Assembly: GCF_014925385.1 (NCBI RefSeq)
Contig: NZ_JACSDK010000022.1
Span: forward strand, 1-64,000
Source of the DNA: Pelagibius marinus
GTDB lineage: Bacteria > Pseudomonadota > Alphaproteobacteria > Kiloniellales > Kiloniellaceae
Direction of reading: 5' to 3'
DNA: 64,000 nt
Positions 52,441 through 60,076 of the stretch are shown in pieces. Both the position numbers and the translations under genes were made by a program. The notes under the pieces were generated by a model. It was not told the DNA's origin. It worked only from the letters and a program-made list of their open reading frames with translations, and did not search any database. The stretch's first letter is position 1. Every line of letters begins with the position of its first letter.

Positions 52441-54144
52441 CTAGCAGCCGCCGGTGGGCTGCAGCAGGCCCCAGCCGAAGGTACTGTCGCGCCCCGGCGT
52501 GCCGAGGTCGCGCGCGCTTTGTTGCAGGCTCTCGCGGATCGCCTGGGGTGGGGCGTCCGGCGTTTTGGAGAGCGAAAGGGCGGCCGCGGCCGAGACGAAG
52601 GGCGCGGCGAAGGAAGTGCCGCTGTTGTAGCGTCCGCCCTTGCCGCCGCGGGCGCTCCAGACGTCGACGCCCGGCGCCGCCAAGTCTACGTAGTCGCCGT
52701 GGTTCGCCTCGGAATAGGGTTGCAGGGCGGCGTCAACGGCGGTGACGGCCACCACCGGCGCATAGCCGGCGGGGTAGACAGGGGCCGCGTTGGGCCCCTC
52801 GTTGCCGGCCGCGGCGACCAGCACCATGCCGCTCTGGTGGGCGCGCTCTACGGTCAGGCGCATGACCTGGTTGCCGGGTCCCGACAGGCTTAAGTTCACC
52901 ACGCGCACACCTTGCTGGCCCAGCCAGTCGACCGAGCGGGCGATGGCGTCGGTGGTTCCGACGATGCGGTTGTCGTCCCGCAACGAGAAAATTCCCGCCG
53001 CGAAAAGGCGGGCGGCGGGCAGGAGTCCGCTGGAGCTCGTGCCGGGCGCGCCGACGATGATGGCGGCTACGGCGGTGCCATGGTCGGGCGGCGCCGGCGG
53101 TACGCCGCCGGCGATGAAACTTCGCACCGTGACCTGGCGGTCGGCCAAGGCCTCGTGGCCGATGTCGACGGCGGTGTCGATCAGTCCGACATAGACGGAG
53201 GTCTCGCAGGCGTGCTTCTCGTCGGGCCAGCCGATCAGCGCCTTGGCGTAGTGTCGCGGCGCGGCGCCGGTCTGCGATGCGGCATCAGGCTCGTAGAGCG
53301 TATTGGCGTCAAACAGGGTGGCCGGGAAAGTCTGACGCAGGCTATCGAGCGCCGCCGGCACGTCCTGGCCGCCGGGCACGCCGAGGCGCAGCAGGGCGAA
53401 ACCCAGCGCCGGGAGCTCCTGCAGCGAGCGTACCGCGTAGCCGAGATTGGCGAGCTGCTGAGCCAGGGCCGTGGCATCGGCGATCGAGGCGGTGATGGCC
53501 AGCACCTCGTCGGGCACGATATCGGGATTGGTCGCCGCGGGCTGATTGGCCGGCGGCAGGGGCGTGCCGGGCTGTGGCTGCGCGCCTTGCGGCGGGGTGG
53601 TCGAGCTTCCCGCCGGGCGGCGGGGCTCGGGTTCCCGCCCTAGCGGATCGCGGCCCTTGCCGCGGTCGGCGCCGGGGTCGACCTGCGCCGAGTTGTTCTT
53701 GTCGATGCCGGGGGTGTCCGCCTGCTCGCAGATCTGCACCGGGCGGCCCTGGCCGGACAGCCAGTTTCCGGTGCGGGCTTCCTGAATGCCCAGGACGTAC
53801 CACTTGCCGCGTTCCAGCTTCTTGCTCTTGGGCAGCGTGGCGCGGATCACCCTGTTGTTCCAGGAGGAGACCGGCAGGGCGATGCTGATGTTCGGATCGC
53901 GGATCACCAGCAGGCGCCCGGCGGCGCGGCCGAGGTGGCGGCCGCGCACCTTCACGCGGTCGCCGAATTCCAGGCAGCCTGTATGTCCGATCCCCATGAT
54001 GACCGGCTGCTGGGCTGCGCTGGTGGAGCTCTGCGCCCTTGCGGTGTTCTGGGCAGGCAGCACCGCCGCCAGCGCCGCGACCAGAAGGCCGCCGAGCAGG
54101 CCACCGCGAAGGCGGGACAGCCGGTCTGCGCGCGCGGCGGCCAT
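52441..54144 (-). CDS. Secreted subtilisin-family (S8) serine protease with N-terminal adhesion-like domain
   Basis: A 567-residue exported protease. Signal peptide about 1-37; an N-terminal beta-rich region about 45-140 (GDRVKVRGRHLGR, IPT/Ig-like); a Pro/Gly/Gln-rich linker (150-205); a propeptide-like domain (about 212-285); and the S8 catalytic domain (about 315-560). The triad is D323 (GLIDTAVD), H355 (PDHGTAVA), S511 (SGTSFAAPFV), with oxyanion N448 (AAAGNEGPN). Cleavage between 285 and 315 would free the enzyme. It starts 5 bp after the anti-sigma gene, so one transcript encodes both. I infer it acts in the periplasm or at the cell surface. Confidence 0.92.
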   Translation of the reverse strand: MAAARADRLSRLRGGLLGGLLVAALAAVLPAQNTARAQSSTSAAQQPVIMGIGHTGCLEFGDRVKVRGRHLGRAAGRLLVIRDPNISIALPVSSWNNRVIRATLPKSKKLERGKWYVLGIQEARTGNWLSGQGRPVQICEQADTPGIDKNNSAQVDPGADRGKGRDPLGREPEPRRPAGSSTTPPQGAQPQPGTPLPPANQPAATNPDIVPDEVLAITASIADATALAQQLANLGYAVRSLQELPALGFALLRLGVPGGQDVPAALDSLRQTFPATLFDANTLYEPDAASQTGAAPRHYAKALIGWPDEKHACETSVYVGLIDTAVDIGHEALADRQVTVRSFIAGGVPPAPPDHGTAVAAIIVGAPGTSSSGLLPAARLFAAGIFSLRDDNRIVGTTDAIARSVDWLGQQGVRVVNLSLSGPGNQVMRLTVERAHQSGMVLVAAAGNEGPNAAPVYPAGYAPVVAVTAVDAALQPYSEANHGDYVDLAAPGVDVWSARGGKGGRYNSGTSFAAPFVSAAAALSLSKTPDAPPQAIRESLQQSARDLGTPGRDSTFGWGLLQPTGGC

Positions 54145-54149
54145 GGCAG

Positions 54150-54782
54150 TCAGTACCTGTCGGCGAAGGTGACGACCGTGTCGTTGGCCCGCAGGGCGGC
54201 GAGGGCTTCCTCAACCGTGGTGGCGTTGGGGTCGACCAGGCGCAGGTTGTAGATGCCCAGCGCCGTCGGGCCGTCGGCGATGGAGGCGCCGGCCGACTGC
54301 AGCACTTCGCGGATGTCCTGCTCGGTGGCGTCGGGCGCGAAGGTCACCTGCATCACCGCAGGGGCCTTGCGGGCGATGGTTACGTCGCCACCCGTGGGGA
54401 TCATGCCGGTGTTCATGCCGACCATGACGCCGGCCTGGACCACGATCGCCAGGCAGGCGGCGACGGCCAGGGGGCGCCAGAAACTGGCGACGGTCAGGAC
54501 CTTGCCGGTCATCCTGTCGGCGCTGCCCTTCTGCTGTTCGGCATCCTGCTTGATCTCGCGCTTCAGGCGCTGCAGGCCCAGCTCGCCGGGGCTGTTCTCG
54601 AAGGCCTGCTCCTTGACCTGCTGGCGCAGCTGGCGCAGCAGCTCCACCTCGTCGCGCGCGTGGGCGCTTTCTTCCAGGTAGGCCTCGACCGCCTGGCGCT
54701 CTCCGGCCTCCAAGGTGCCGTTGACGTACCAGGGCAGTAGCAGGTCCAGGTTTTCGTCTCTTTTTCCGTTGTCAGCCATCAT
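54150..54782 (-). CDS. Membrane anti-sigma factor with propeptide-like periplasmic domain
   Basis: A 210-residue single-pass protein. Cytoplasmic part 1-95 has the anti-sigma pattern LLLPWYVNGTLEAGERQAVEAYLE but lacks the zinc ligands (no HxxxCxxC). The membrane segment is 101-123. The periplasmic part (124-210) aligns collinearly with the propeptide region of the downstream protease: DATEQDI...G, then ALGIYNLRL and VEEALAALR match DATALAQ...G, ALGFALLRL and VPAALDSLR. It would bind and silence the ECF sigma factor whose gene overlaps by 4 bp (ATGA). The start at 54782 is fixed by that overlap; an ATG at 54779 is equally possible. Confidence 0.88.
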   Translation of the reverse strand: MMADNGKRDENLDLLLPWYVNGTLEAGERQAVEAYLEESAHARDEVELLRQLRQQVKEQAFENSPGELGLQRLKREIKQDAEQQKGSADRMTGKVLTVASFWRPLAVAACLAIVVQAGVMVGMNTGMIPTGGDVTIARKAPAVMQVTFAPDATEQDIREVLQSAGASIADGPTALGIYNLRLVDPNATTVEEALAALRANDTVVTFADRY

Positions 54783-55333
54783 GACAATCCCATCTCTTTG
54801 AGCCCCGCAAGGCACTTCATCAGTGCCTTTTTCGCGTGAAACATCCTCGTCTTCACCGTGCCCTCGGGGCAGCCGACGATGTCGGCGATCTGCCCGTAGG
54901 GGAGGTCTTCGAAGAAAGCCAGATGGACCACGCTGCGGTGCGCCTCTGAGAGTTGATCAACACAGTGCCGCACCTGTTCCGCATCCTGGGCCGCTGAGAG
55001 CGTTTCTGCTGCGTTGGGAGATTCGTCCTCTGCAATCTCCGGATCCAGCTCCACGCTCTCTCCTGGTTTACGCCGCCGGATCCGGTCGATCGCCTTGTGG
55101 TGAGCGATGCCTAGAACCCAGGTGCTCACCGAGGATCGGCCTTCAAAGCGGCTGGCGCTGCGCCAGACTTCGAACATGACCTCGTTGAGTACGTCGGAGG
55201 CATCGAAGGAATCGTTCAATTTGGAACGAATAAAACGGAAAACGCGTCCCTCGTAGAGGCGATAAAACTCGTCCATCGCCGACTCGTCGCCGTTCGCCAT
55301 TCGGCTCAGCAGCTCTCGATCGTCTTCTGTCAA
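54779..55333 (-). CDS. ECF-family RNA polymerase sigma factor
   Basis: A 184-residue extracytoplasmic-function sigma factor. Region 2 (about 10-80) has FYRLYEGRVFRFIRSKL and DVLNEVMFEVWRSASRFEG. A short acidic linker (about 95-115, PEIAEDESPNAAET) separates it from region 4 (about 125-175) with LSEAHRSVVHLAFFEDLPYGQIA and EGTVKTRMFHAKKAL. No C-terminal sensor domain. Translationally coupled to its anti-sigma factor. It probably controls this array and perhaps other genes; a candidate target promoter lies at 56704-56729. Confidence 0.94.
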   Translation of the reverse strand: MTEDDRELLSRMANGDESAMDEFYRLYEGRVFRFIRSKLNDSFDASDVLNEVMFEVWRSASRFEGRSSVSTWVLGIAHHKAIDRIRRRKPGESVELDPEIAEDESPNAAETLSAAQDAEQVRHCVDQLSEAHRSVVHLAFFEDLPYGQIADIVGCPEGTVKTRMFHAKKALMKCLAGLKEMGLS

Positions 55334-55387: not shown

Positions 55388-56602
55388 CTAGGGTTTATGG
55401 ATCTCCCTCGCGGGACTGGTCCCAATAATAGCGCCATTAGCATCAATTGCGGTGACCATCCAGAGGTAGCGCTTACCGTCGGCCAGCTGGGCCAGGGTAA
55501 AGGCCTCCAGACTCGCAGAAGTGCGTCCTCCGGGCACGAAGATTCCGGCCGCGGCGGGTTCACCCGCGGGCACCGTCTTGGCGGTCATCTGCTCGGCCGT
55601 TGCCTGGGTGTCACGGGCCGGGTCCAGCGGCTCCGCCGGGCCGCTGGGCACGGCAAAGAAGGAAAGCTGGTAGGCATCGGCGCCGTCCAGGGCGTTCCAG
55701 GAAAAGAGGGTCTCGGCCGTCAGCGGTGTCCCGGGGCGCGGCCCGGTCAACAGGATCTCCCGCAGTGCGGAGAGGGGCGCGGGCCGCGACTTCGGCGTCA
55801 CGTAGTACTGCAGCGTCGGCGCGTCGAAGGCCAGGCCGGGCTCGATCATCCTGAGGCGCACCAGGTGGGTGCCTTCCGCACCGGTCGGCAGCGGCGGGCT
55901 GGTCAGCACCGCGCGCCCGCCGGCGCCGACGCCCTGGCGCACCAGGGCGAGGGGATGGAACATCGGGGCGCCGGCCGTGGAAGTGGCGGAGGCCACCTCC
56001 CACTGCGCCTGCAGCAGGCCGACGCCGCTGGTGTTGATTTCGGCGACGACGCGCAGTTCGCTGTCTTTCGGCAGCACACGGCTGCGCGTCTTGTCGTCGA
56101 ACGTCAGCTCCAGGCGCTGCACCGAAAGGGCGACGGAGCCTTCGCCGGTCGGGGTCACCTCGAACTCACCGTTTTCGGTGGAGTTGTCGGCGGTGTCCGT
56201 GAAAACGCGGCGCAGGGTCAGCGAGGCGCCTTCCTTGACGGCGCGGTAAACCATTGCCTGGGGGATCATGACCACCTCGCGGAGGCGCAAGATTTCCGAG
56301 TACACCTCGCCCTTGGTGGTCTGGGACACGCTGCGGGGCAGGTTGCCCGCGGAAATGCCGTCGATGAACACCTGAACCGCCGAAGACGAAACGGTGCCCG
56401 GATTGGGCGTGTCGGGGGAAATCCGCTCGACGTTCCAGTTCACGGCGACCGTAGCCGGTCCGACGCTCGCAATCCGCGCCTTGGCGGGCGAGGGGGTGAC
56501 GTCGTTGATATAGGCTTCTGCCTGCGGCAGCGCGATGGTCATGGTGGCCAGTGCAGCGGCCAGCACGGCGGGGAGTCGGAGGTTTCGGGCGCCCATGGTC
56601 AT
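55388..56602 (-). CDS. Secreted Ig/Fn3-like protein, paralogue A
   Basis: A 404-residue exported protein: signal peptide (cleavage near PQAEAY) and a mature beta-rich part. It shares with the neighbouring 407-residue gene the beginning ARIASVGPATVAVNW, the centre LTFDDKTRSRVLPKDSEL and LNTSGVGL-like repeat, the LQYYVTPKS segment, an Fn3-like FSWNALDGADAYQLSF, and the C-terminal IIGTSPAREIHKP. No named family is recognised. Probably periplasmic or surface-exposed; it lies between the barrel gene and the sigma factor on the same strand. No catalytic motif is seen. Confidence 0.8.
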   Translation of the reverse strand: MTMGARNLRLPAVLAAALATMTIALPQAEAYINDVTPSPAKARIASVGPATVAVNWNVERISPDTPNPGTVSSSAVQVFIDGISAGNLPRSVSQTTKGEVYSEILRLREVVMIPQAMVYRAVKEGASLTLRRVFTDTADNSTENGEFEVTPTGEGSVALSVQRLELTFDDKTRSRVLPKDSELRVVAEINTSGVGLLQAQWEVASATSTAGAPMFHPLALVRQGVGAGGRAVLTSPPLPTGAEGTHLVRLRMIEPGLAFDAPTLQYYVTPKSRPAPLSALREILLTGPRPGTPLTAETLFSWNALDGADAYQLSFFAVPSGPAEPLDPARDTQATAEQMTAKTVPAGEPAAAGIFVPGGRTSASLEAFTLAQLADGKRYLWMVTAIDANGAIIGTSPAREIHKP

Positions 56603-56703
56603 ATTCCTTGGCTAACGGTTGTCCTTGCTCTTGAAAGCTCTCGTGCAAGGGCAACGGATCGGCTGCCGGGCAGGCTCCCGCCGCTGCTCTTGCTCCCCGT
56701 TTG

Positions 56704-56729
56704 TCGTTGTGACCAGGGGGGAGGTTCAA
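56704..56729 (-). promoter_or_regulatory. Candidate ECF-type promoter before paralogue A
   Basis: Minus strand TGAACC (56724-56729) and CGAC (56704-56707) are 16 bp apart, the usual geometry of ECF sigma promoters (GAAC-type -35). It lies in the 143-bp gap between the two paralogues, about 100 bp before the start at 56602. Pattern only; the specificity of this sigma factor is unknown. Confidence 0.3.
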
Positions 56730-56745
56730 TGAGCGGCGGGCGGCC

Positions 56746-57969
56746 TCAAGGTTTGTAAATCTCCCGTGCCGGGCTCCTGCCGATGACCGCGCCTTCCTTG
56801 TCCAGCGCCTTGACCGACCATTCATAGCGGCGGTCGCCGGGCAGGTGCTCCAGGGTGAAATCCTGCAAACGGACCTCGGTCACCGCGGCCGGGACCACGA
56901 TGCCGGTCAGAGGCGTGAGGCCTCGGACACTCTCGACGTTTGGCGCGCGGTCCAGCGGCACGTCGGTCACCACCTCGTTGGTCGCCACATTGTCCCCCGG
57001 GCCGGGCGGCGCGCCGAAAATCTCCAGCTTGTAGAGATGGGCGCCGGGCAGCGCCTGCCAGGAAAAGCGCGTGGTGAGCGTCAGCGGCGTGCCGAGGCTG
57101 GGCGAGGTGACCAGCATGGGCTGGGGATCCCGCCGCTGCGGCAGCGGGCTCTCCGGCGTCACGTAATACTGGAGCTGCGGCTCGTCGAAGAGGACTTCCG
57201 GGTCGTCCAGCCTCAACCTCACCAGGTTATTGCCCTCGAAGCGGGTGGGCAGCGGCGGGCTGGTGATGGTTACCGGGCGGCCGCCCGCCACGGGCCGGCG
57301 CACCAGGGCCAAGGTCCGGAATACCGGCGTCCCGGCCGTCGTCGCCGCCGTGGCGATCTCCCATTGACCCCGGATCAGGCCGTTCCCCGAGGTGTTGAGG
57401 CGGGCGACGGCGCGCAGGCGCCGGCCCTTGGGGAGCACTTTGAAGCGGGAGCCGTCGTCGAAGCGCAGCTCCATGCGACTGACGTTGAAGGGCGCCGAAC
57501 CGGGACCGGAGGGCGTCAGCAGGGTGGTGCCGGACAGGCTGGAAGGAGGTGTGGTAGGGAGGCTGTCGGTGAAGGTTCGCTGATAGACGATCGGCACGCC
57601 GGACTTGATGGCGCGGAAAGCCACGGCCTGCGGCACGGTAAAGGTTTCGGTGAATATCAGGGACTCCGTGGTGGCCGGCGGTCCGGGTGCAAAGCGTGAA
57701 AGCGGGCGTTGGTTGGTCGCCAGGACGGTGCCATTGACGATCAAGGTCCCGCTCGGCGAGCTGATGGTCCCGGGATTGGAGGGCGCCGAGCCCCCCAAAC
57801 GGAGCACCTGCCAGGTGACGGTCACCGTGCTCGGACCGACACTGGAAACCGGGATACGGGCCTGGGTCGTGTCCACGCTCAAGATACCGGCGAAGGCGCC
57901 AGGGGCGAGCAGCAGCGCGCTTGCCGTGACCAGGAAAACGAGAGCGAGAGGGAGGAAGCGAAGTTTCAT
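56746..57969 (-). CDS. Secreted Ig/Fn3-like protein, paralogue B
   Basis: A 407-residue exported protein, paralogue of the preceding entry. The signal peptide ends near GAFAG. It shares ARIPVSSVGPSTVTVTWQV, MELRFDDGSRFKVLPKG, LNTSGNGLIRGQWE, LQYYVTPES, FSWQALPGAHLYKLEIF and the end VIGRSPAREIYKP with paralogue A, so the two arose by tandem duplication and have since diverged. The gene starts 10 bp after the barrel gene's stop. Function unknown. Two copies next to a barrel suggest they decorate or pass through it, an inference. Confidence 0.8.
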   Translation of the reverse strand: MKLRFLPLALVFLVTASALLLAPGAFAGILSVDTTQARIPVSSVGPSTVTVTWQVLRLGGSAPSNPGTISSPSGTLIVNGTVLATNQRPLSRFAPGPPATTESLIFTETFTVPQAVAFRAIKSGVPIVYQRTFTDSLPTTPPSSLSGTTLLTPSGPGSAPFNVSRMELRFDDGSRFKVLPKGRRLRAVARLNTSGNGLIRGQWEIATAATTAGTPVFRTLALVRRPVAGGRPVTITSPPLPTRFEGNNLVRLRLDDPEVLFDEPQLQYYVTPESPLPQRRDPQPMLVTSPSLGTPLTLTTRFSWQALPGAHLYKLEIFGAPPGPGDNVATNEVVTDVPLDRAPNVESVRGLTPLTGIVVPAAVTEVRLQDFTLEHLPGDRRYEWSVKALDKEGAVIGRSPAREIYKP

Positions 57970-57979
57970 CGGGACGCTC

Positions 57980-60076
57980 TCAATAGGCCACGGGCAATGA
58001 CAGACGGAGGGAGGTAAACGCTTGATATTGCAAGTCGTCTTCGGGGTTGTCGAAATCGTCGTTGGTGTCCTGGATGTGGCCGGTAACCGCCACGGCGATG
58101 CCGAGCCTGTTTACATCGGCTTGGCGCAGTGTCCACACCACCTCGCCGTTCAAGCTGTTGGTATCAGGTGTGTCGCCGTCGCCCATCCGGTGGTTCAGAG
58201 AGTAATACAGCGTAGCGTCCAGCGTTTCCGGAATCACTGTGACATTGGCGCCGAGGTTCAGCAGCAGGCTCTGATTGTCGTCGCCGGTGTCGAGGTCCTC
58301 GAAGTTGTCCCACTGGACGCTGGGCTGTAGCGTCAGCCAGTCGTCGACCAGGAAGTAGGCGCTGAGGCCGGTGCTGTTGTTGCGCGTGTCGCTGCTCAGG
58401 TCGACATGGTCCTCGAAGGAATAGATCGTGTGCGAGAGGTTCCAGTTCCAGGTTTCGTAGTTGGCGCCGGTGCTCAAGGTGAGAGAGCGTGTCGAATTGT
58501 TGGCGTCGTCGTTGGGAGAGTCCTGCGACTTGTCGATCCGGTCGATCTCGTACCAAGAGGCCGAAATGCCGAAGAAGGGCTGGCCGTACCACGGCAGGGA
58601 GCCGTCTTCCAGCGGCTCGATGTAGGGTGTGTAGTTGCCGTTGAAGTAGATGTTGATATTGCGGTCGGTCGGCAGGTAGTCCAGGTCATCGACGTTGTTG
58701 ACCTGGTGGTCGACGCGCAACTGCGCGGAGAACTCGTCCCAGAGGAAATCCGTGTAGACCGACGTCGTCTCGCGGTCGGGTTCCAGGTAGGGGTTGGCCA
58801 GGCTGCTGAAGAAGGTATCAACCTGGTCGCGCTGCACGCCGATGGTCCAGGTGAAGACGCTGCCGTCCAGGGTGGCGCCGCGCAGCGGCTCGAGTGAGGC
58901 CAGCACGGAGTAAGCGTCGGCGGTTTCGGCATCGAAGCCCTGGTCCTTGCCGTCGAAATCGAAGTTGGTCTGTGCATACTCGCCGCGCAGGCGCAGGGCC
59001 TCGTCGAACCACAACGTGTCCGCGGCGATCGACCAGCCGTCGCCTTCGTTGACCACCTCGTCGCTACCGATGCCGAAGCCGCCGTCGCCGCCTTCGCCGG
59101 TATAGAAAGTGCCGGTCAGGACAATGTTGTCCTTCAGGGCTTCGATCGGACGCACCGAGACGGAGGCGCCTTCGACCCTTTCCTCGTTGCGGCTGATGCC
59201 GAGCTCGTGGCGGGTGCCTACCAGGGCTTCGGTGCTCTGCACGAAGCCGGTGACGGAAAGCCGGTCGTCGGCAAGGCCGGTCCGCAGGGAGACGCCGCGG
59301 CGATAGAATCCGGACATGATCAGGTTGTCGATGCCGGTGTCGTGGTCACCGGCGGTGAAGCCGGCGAAGAAGCTGTCCTGCTCGTAGTCGCCGTCGATCC
59401 GGTATTCACTGAAATCGAAGTTGCGCCCGTCGATGCCCAGGTCGATCTGGCTGTTGTAGAGGTAGCTGCCTTGGGCCGAGATGCGCCAGTGCTCGTCACC
59501 GGCTGAGGCCTCGGCGGTGCCGGCGCTCTCTCCCGTCACGTGCTGAGGCGGGGTATCGATGCCGTTTTCGGCAAAGCGGGTATTCACCTCGCCGGCCAGG
59601 TTGGCGTTCACTGACAGGTCCCGGATCAGCTCTGAATGACGGACGTCCAGGCTCCAGTAGCCGCGCTCAAGGATCGAACCGTCGCCGCCGCGCTCTACGA
59701 GGCGCAGGCTGTGGCTGCCGGTTGAAAGCGTCTCCGGTGGCGTAACGACCAGGCGTGCGTTCTCAACCAGAACGAAGGCGGTGACGTCGATGTCGTCCAG
59801 CTCGACCGCGAGGTTCTGGTAGATTGCCGGGTCAAGGTCGGCCGGCAGCAGAATGACGATGGGATCGCTGCGCCCCCGGCTCTCGGAGGGAGTCGCTTCC
59901 AGCTCCGGCACCCAGTCGCCTTGCGCCAGGGCCGGCGGGGCCCCGCAAAGGGCCAAAGCCAGAAAAATCGTCGCCAGCCCGGTGGTGGAACGAGTGGAAT
60001 AACCCCTGGCCGCTTTGCGGCCAGGTAGCACAAAAGAATGCCTGATGCCCTGCGCACCACGCCTACATTCCCGCAT
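57980..60076 (-). CDS. Predicted outer-membrane beta-barrel protein
   Basis: A 698-residue protein with a long signal region (about 1-51, cleavage near ALAQG) and an N-terminal beta domain (about 55-165, IVILLPADLDPAIYQNL, SHSLRLVERGGDGS). From about 185 to the end run alternating hydrophobic strands and acidic turns (DDWLTLQPSVQWDNF, NWNLSHTIYSFEDH), and it closes with the aromatic end RLSLPVAY, as in barrels. No TonB plug, TonB box or porin family is recognised. First gene of the six-gene array. It may be an export or surface-attachment channel for the two secreted paralogues. Confidence 0.8.
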   Translation of the reverse strand: MRECRRGAQGIRHSFVLPGRKAARGYSTRSTTGLATIFLALALCGAPPALAQGDWVPELEATPSESRGRSDPIVILLPADLDPAIYQNLAVELDDIDVTAFVLVENARLVVTPPETLSTGSHSLRLVERGGDGSILERGYWSLDVRHSELIRDLSVNANLAGEVNTRFAENGIDTPPQHVTGESAGTAEASAGDEHWRISAQGSYLYNSQIDLGIDGRNFDFSEYRIDGDYEQDSFFAGFTAGDHDTGIDNLIMSGFYRRGVSLRTGLADDRLSVTGFVQSTEALVGTRHELGISRNEERVEGASVSVRPIEALKDNIVLTGTFYTGEGGDGGFGIGSDEVVNEGDGWSIAADTLWFDEALRLRGEYAQTNFDFDGKDQGFDAETADAYSVLASLEPLRGATLDGSVFTWTIGVQRDQVDTFFSSLANPYLEPDRETTSVYTDFLWDEFSAQLRVDHQVNNVDDLDYLPTDRNINIYFNGNYTPYIEPLEDGSLPWYGQPFFGISASWYEIDRIDKSQDSPNDDANNSTRSLTLSTGANYETWNWNLSHTIYSFEDHVDLSSDTRNNSTGLSAYFLVDDWLTLQPSVQWDNFEDLDTGDDNQSLLLNLGANVTVIPETLDATLYYSLNHRMGDGDTPDTNSLNGEVVWTLRQADVNRLGIAVAVTGHIQDTNDDFDNPEDDLQYQAFTSLRLSLPVAY

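Follow-up and report, generated by a model that had tools for sequence, protein, structure and literature searches.

How a membrane anti-sigma factor perceives its signal is, to our knowledge, not understood for most such proteins, and the locus studied here raises the question of what the periplasmic domain of one of them may recognise. The window, which denotes the whole stretch of 64,000 nucleotides from Pelagibius marinus that was analysed, carries on its minus strand the gene order up3-up2-up1, ECF sigma factor, anti-sigma factor and S8 (subtilisin-like) serine protease. The sigma factor gene (54779..55333) has a TTG start and encodes 184 aa with Pfam matches to Sigma70_r2 (3.1e-16) and Sigma70_r4_2 (8.8e-14); the gene of the membrane anti-sigma factor (54150..54779, 209 aa) follows directly, with a 1-base overlap with the sigma stop, and the protease gene (52441..54144, 567 aa including a signal peptide, Pfam Peptidase_S8 at 9.3e-38) starts 5 bp past the anti-sigma stop. 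The genes, their coordinates and the distance of 5 bp stated in the original prediction (52441-55333 overall) proved correct on recheck. The closest named genomes for the locus are those of Pelagibius and other Kiloniellaceae, and a profile search of genome contigs with the full-length anti-sigma alignment returned mainly Pelagibius and close kin. ECF-type promoter patterns occur within the window at a frequency expected by chance.

Upstream of the sigma gene and on the same strand lie up1 (55388..56602), which encodes a secreted protein of no Pfam family and stands beside the sigma gene in many relatives, its paralogue up2 (56746..57969), which is conserved in relatives, and up3 (57980..60076), whose large secreted product has no Pfam match, is conserved upstream in relatives and, judged from its sequence, is probably an outer-membrane barrel. 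All three conserved secreted proteins (window 55388-60076) are encoded ahead of the sigma factor in many relatives, whereas Bradyrhizobium-type loci do not have them there.

The 209-aa protein has the features of a membrane anti-sigma factor, as its gene adjoins that of an ECF sigma factor and sequence reading gives it a cytoplasmic N-terminal domain, one transmembrane segment (residues 103-122, minus strand 54414..54473, hydrophobic run PLAVAACLAIVVQAGVMVGM) and a C-terminal periplasmic domain. Family models match it below their cut-offs, the NCBIfam anti-sigma model at 4.6e-11 and 43.1 bits (cut-off 100) and zf-HC2 at 13 bits (cut-off 22.2). The periplasmic domain (residues 141-209, minus strand 54153..54359) was identified as S8-prodomain-like through PF22148 (Fervidolysin N-terminal prodomain), AlphaFold, PDB matches and profile-profile comparison.

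AlphaFold modelled this domain with a pLDDT of 90.3 and with the beta-alpha-beta-beta-alpha-beta order of subtilisin propeptides. The top Foldseek probabilities (0.99) belonged to subtilisin propeptides and the EpiP prodomain, and POIA1 and a furin-bound prodomain were also listed. VIA-align against the PDB ranked four subtilisin propeptide chains as the best (Z 6.8-7.2 over 62-63 residues, rmsd 2.7-3.0), followed by unrelated ferredoxin-like proteins at Z 6.5 and below (6.0-6.5). Since a propeptide Z of about 7 is only modestly above that of the unrelated proteins, and the ferredoxin-like fold is very common, structure alone does not prove homology. The S8 protease was modelled with a pLDDT of 89.5 overall, and its own prodomain (residues 209-286, minus strand 53287..53520) at about 96 with the same beta-alpha-beta-beta-alpha-beta order. 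The model of prodomain plus catalytic domain superposes on unprocessed pro-subtilisin E over 331 residues, compared with about 258 for mature subtilisins; as the longer superposition includes the prodomain, the latter is modelled at its classical place. Different predicted folds for the two domains had been named beforehand as a reason to abandon the relationship, and the predicted folds agree.

At the sequence level, the window pair shares 18 identities over 70 aligned positions (26%; anti-sigma residues about 141-209, S8 residues about 209-286), in line with the roughly 17 over about 60 first counted. A comparison of broad profiles with hhalign, using the anti-sigma domain from 66 loci and S8 prodomains from 62 loci, gave P=8.6e-5 and a score of 28.3 over 67 collinear columns. 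None of 200 column shuffles reached this score (8.9 +/- 2.0, maximum 20.8) and the reversed profile scored 9.3, so the profile-profile check that had been recommended places the similarity beyond chance; narrower profiles gave P=0.0025. PF22148 scored 21.1 bits against the isolated anti-sigma domain of the window (cut-off 21) and 18.5 bits, below that cut-off, against the whole protein, and it matched 17/25 homologues of the domain at E<=1 (best E=1.6e-5). The same model gave no match to the proteases' own prodomains, the prodomain of the S8 protease being too divergent for PF22148 yet plain in the predicted structure, and a profile of the anti-sigma domain searched against PDB chain sequences found no matches. 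On the combined evidence of sequence profiles and predicted structures, the anti-sigma periplasmic domain is a remote homologue of S8 prodomains with the same fold.

The original prediction had gone further and described the domain as a copy or mimic of the propeptide of the neighbouring protease. A recent copy found no support, as the higher similarity of own pairs over swapped pairs that pairwise alignment suggested (p ~5e-4) was not confirmed in a fixed alignment (p 0.04-0.23), which amounts to no robust own-pair excess; the related proposal that the anti-sigma and S8 prodomains co-vary fared no better by this measure. The lack of such an excess points to an old divergence instead of a copy, thus the two domains appear from their sequences to have diverged long ago, and "distant relative of S8 prodomains" is the better description.

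The survey of genomes that had been called for found an S8 gene beside the domain-bearing anti-sigma gene at 63/68 assessable loci in Pseudomonadota, and these 63 loci span 19 families. The non-redundant set comprises 66 loci (63 with S8, L053 and L054 without it, and one truncated where its contig stops), and the 68 are its assessable members plus L121-L123, all three without S8; the domain without an S8 protease nearby, which was to count against a functional meaning, is therefore rare (5/68). At the order level, 21/23 assessable full-domain loci have an adjacent S8 gene (L031-L052 minus L042, which was left out because the contig ends there; the exceptions are L053 and L054), at the class level all 13/13 more distant loci have one, and at the phylum level S8 was found inside 1.5 kb at 27/29 loci, two of them already counted, with wider flanks adding more. 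In 59 of the 63 loci, the protease gene follows downstream with the same orientation; two loci have it upstream, and another two carry it on the opposite strand. As controls, 30 anti-sigma loci of the same class were collected via zf-HC2 and S8 was sought within 1.5 kb: none of the 29 control loci lacking the domain had S8 (0/29), and the sole control locus with S8 inside this distance was the sole one bearing the prodomain-like domain. The difference between 63/68 and 0/29 corresponds to a Fisher p of 6e-20, a value that is overstated because relatives were counted and some loci were given wider flanks than the controls; at an equal 1.5 kb the comparison is 27/29 against 0/29. In an independent annotated collection, 3/3 plasmid loci (Methylocapsa, Sphingomonas and Sphingobium) likewise include a gene for a serine protease, and the linkage to S8 is retained where the up genes are absent. 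The conserved unit consists of ECF sigma factor, anti-sigma factor and S8 protease, the last with its catalytic triad and own prodomain retained. Since the domain is tied genetically to S8 proteases across 19 families and shares their prodomain fold by remote homology, the functional link between protease status and sigma release that had been suggested for this locus is likely.

Several loci depart from this arrangement. L053 and L054 have a prodomain-like domain with no S8 gene nearby, and in the one related genus to which L053, L054 and L055 belong, these loci hold a second anti-sigma-like paralogue with the domain or a truncated form of it, with no sigma or S8 gene nearby; the genus also has an anti-sigma/S8 pair with no adjacent sigma gene. 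Distant relatives of the domain at L121:4953-6391, L122:1379-6268 and L123:1153-5701 have no S8 gene, and a caspase-like peptidase gene (Peptidase_C14) is close, in L121 directly downstream of the anti-sigma gene. L121-L123 are weak matches to the domain, and a swap of the peptidase partner is possible. At L057, L059, L060 and L061, an S8 protease with a similar prodomain, Asp/Gly-repeat linkers and divergent orientation stands next to an ECF/anti-sigma pair in which the periplasmic domain bears no relation to the prodomain, thus linkage of S8 is possible with another periplasmic domain as well.

The protease of the window combines the S8 profile with the Asp/His/Ser triad and the oxyanion Asn (Asp323, His355, Ser511 and Asn448; catalytic domain at 52468..53199, minus strand). 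Among the partners, the catalytic Asp, His and Ser are kept wherever the gene is complete, and the protease has its own prodomain at 62/62 loci examined. The window protease also carries an N-terminal domain ahead of a Pro-rich linker (residues 45-140, minus strand 53725..54012), which has no Pfam match and is kept in close relatives. In the sphingomonad/beta/gamma branch, the partners of L102, L124, L125, L126, L131 and L132 keep Asp/His/Ser and are missing the AAGN motif of the oxyanion-hole Asn, which suggests a weakened catalysis and a regulatory role for these putative enzymes. The partners of L082 and L106, encoded on the strand opposite to the anti-sigma gene, have a lipobox (LLSAC and LLLSGC, respectively), which would tie the protease to the membrane.

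A bearing on the direction of the presumed interaction comes from the end of the anti-sigma domain. The propeptide of subtilisin BPN' has 77 residues, the final ones lying in the active site, and the model of the anti-sigma domain aligns to its residues 7-71. In 38/66 anti-sigma domains the chain ends 1-3 residues past the last strand, and the remaining ones have tails of 4-18 residues without a common motif, so the C-terminal tail by which a trans-acting I9-type inhibitor fills the active site of a protease is missing in most members. The original prediction had allowed for an anti-sigma factor that keeps the protease inactive; for inhibition of the classical kind this is not borne out, as most members stop just before the segment that would fill the active site. 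With this tail missing, sequences and models favour docking over classical inhibition as the role of the domain.

We propose that the three genes encode one signalling unit, in which the anti-sigma factor would tether the ECF sigma factor to the inner membrane and its periplasmic S8-prodomain fold would serve as docking site for the co-encoded periplasmic protease. Docking would use the protease surface normally covered by the protease's own prodomain, in competition with it, and would be limited to protease that has shed this prodomain, so that the domain would read the presence of mature protease. As a consequence of docking the anti-sigma factor would be lost. In the simplest case the S8 protease would act as site-1 protease and make the first cut, which a partner that is a protease could do, and a general intramembrane protease would then free the sigma factor; a site-2 type M50 protease is encoded in the genome. 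That the domain docks the mature co-encoded protease and thereby triggers sigma release is our best explanation, to which we assign a probability of about one half. It is favoured by fold and homology, linkage, the kept triad, the lipoboxes of L082 and L106, the missing tail, the M50 protease and the precedent of RsiV, and weighed against it are the common fold, the modest Z, the likeness of own and swapped pairs, and the loci L057, L059, L060, L061, L053 and L054. Wider in scope and more tentative is the view that a widespread Pseudomonadota unit may exist in which the anti-sigma factor uses a propeptide-like domain without the tail to recognise its own subtilase and is in turn cleaved by this enzyme, which would be a dedicated bacterial site-1 protease that acts once its own prodomain has been removed.

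Other readings of the same evidence have to be weighed. Low identity (26%) and a common fold could be taken to mean that the similarity is chance, or a shared fold that reflects neither common descent nor a functional connection; however, profile-profile, Pfam, structural and linkage evidence are concordant, and in view of the linkage and profile results chance similarity is very unlikely. It is also conceivable that the anti-sigma domain acts in the reverse direction, inhibiting or chaperoning the protease from the membrane in the manner of trans-acting I9 inhibitors, so that with sigma off the protease would be held at the membrane, and sigma and protease would be freed together. S8 prodomains both inhibit their proteases and assist their folding, an established property of the family that agrees with such a role. 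The fold is common to propeptides and the inhibitor POIA1, and RsiV likewise inhibits the enzyme that it senses (PMC5014341). On the other hand, the C-terminal active-site segment is missing in most members and at every locus examined (62/62) the protease comes with a prodomain of its own, which leaves the reverse direction, including the joint release of sigma and protease, unlikely in our view.

It is likewise rather improbable that the domain binds something else, such as the N-terminal domain of the protease, a surface protein encoded upstream or a peptide generated by the protease, with the S8 gene being merely a sigma target. The extra N-terminal domain on the protease, the many functions served by the ferredoxin-like fold, and the S8 genes that adjoin ECF/anti-sigma pairs with a different periplasmic domain would all accommodate another ligand, but the linkage is far stronger for the prodomain-like domain (63/68 vs 0/29) and it holds where the upstream genes are missing.

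The literature on anti-sigma factors with propeptide or subtilisin, which was covered in part, contained no such system, in agreement with the original prediction, and the gene neighbourhood may already be tabulated. No description of the domain's identity and meaning was found in it; the near-constant pairing of the domain with a protease gene suggests control of gene expression by a protease through an undescribed route. A sensing domain and its likely partner are hereby named for a unit present in 19 families of Pseudomonadota, with a mechanism that is directly testable. If true, subtilases would join the bacterial proteases that initiate regulated proteolysis, of which the site-1 enzymes described to date belong, as far as we know, to other families, and a protease prodomain would have been reused as a receptor domain. 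A functional parallel would be regulated intramembrane proteolysis in animals, in which the subtilase S1P/SKI-1 makes the first cut in a transcription regulator held at the membrane; the regulators themselves are unrelated. Fervidolysin-type S8 prodomains (PF22148) and subtilisin propeptides (PDB 1spb, 1scj, 1r6v) resemble the domain in fold and sequence profile, but they stand on the same chain just before the S8 catalytic domain, whereas here the domain is the C-terminal part of a separate membrane anti-sigma factor and mostly has no active-site tail. POIA1 (PDB 1itp, 1v5i), a trans-acting I9-type protein, is likewise a propeptide-like domain apart from its protease, but it is soluble and has a C-terminal tail, while the domain of the anti-sigma factor is anchored in the membrane and in most members lacks the tail. 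A precedent is RsiV of Bacillus subtilis (PMC5014341, PMC4183432), which likewise controls an ECF sigma factor from the membrane and has an extracytoplasmic domain for an enzyme that is the signal for anti-sigma loss: RsiV engages lysozyme at its active-site pocket, this binding is needed for site-1 cleavage, and RsiV also inhibits lysozyme (PMC5014341). A Pfam scan of the anti-sigma protein gave no match to the family of the RsiV extracytoplasmic domain, and while RsiV binds a foreign hydrolase and is cut by signal peptidase, the presumed partner here is a co-encoded protease of the cell itself.
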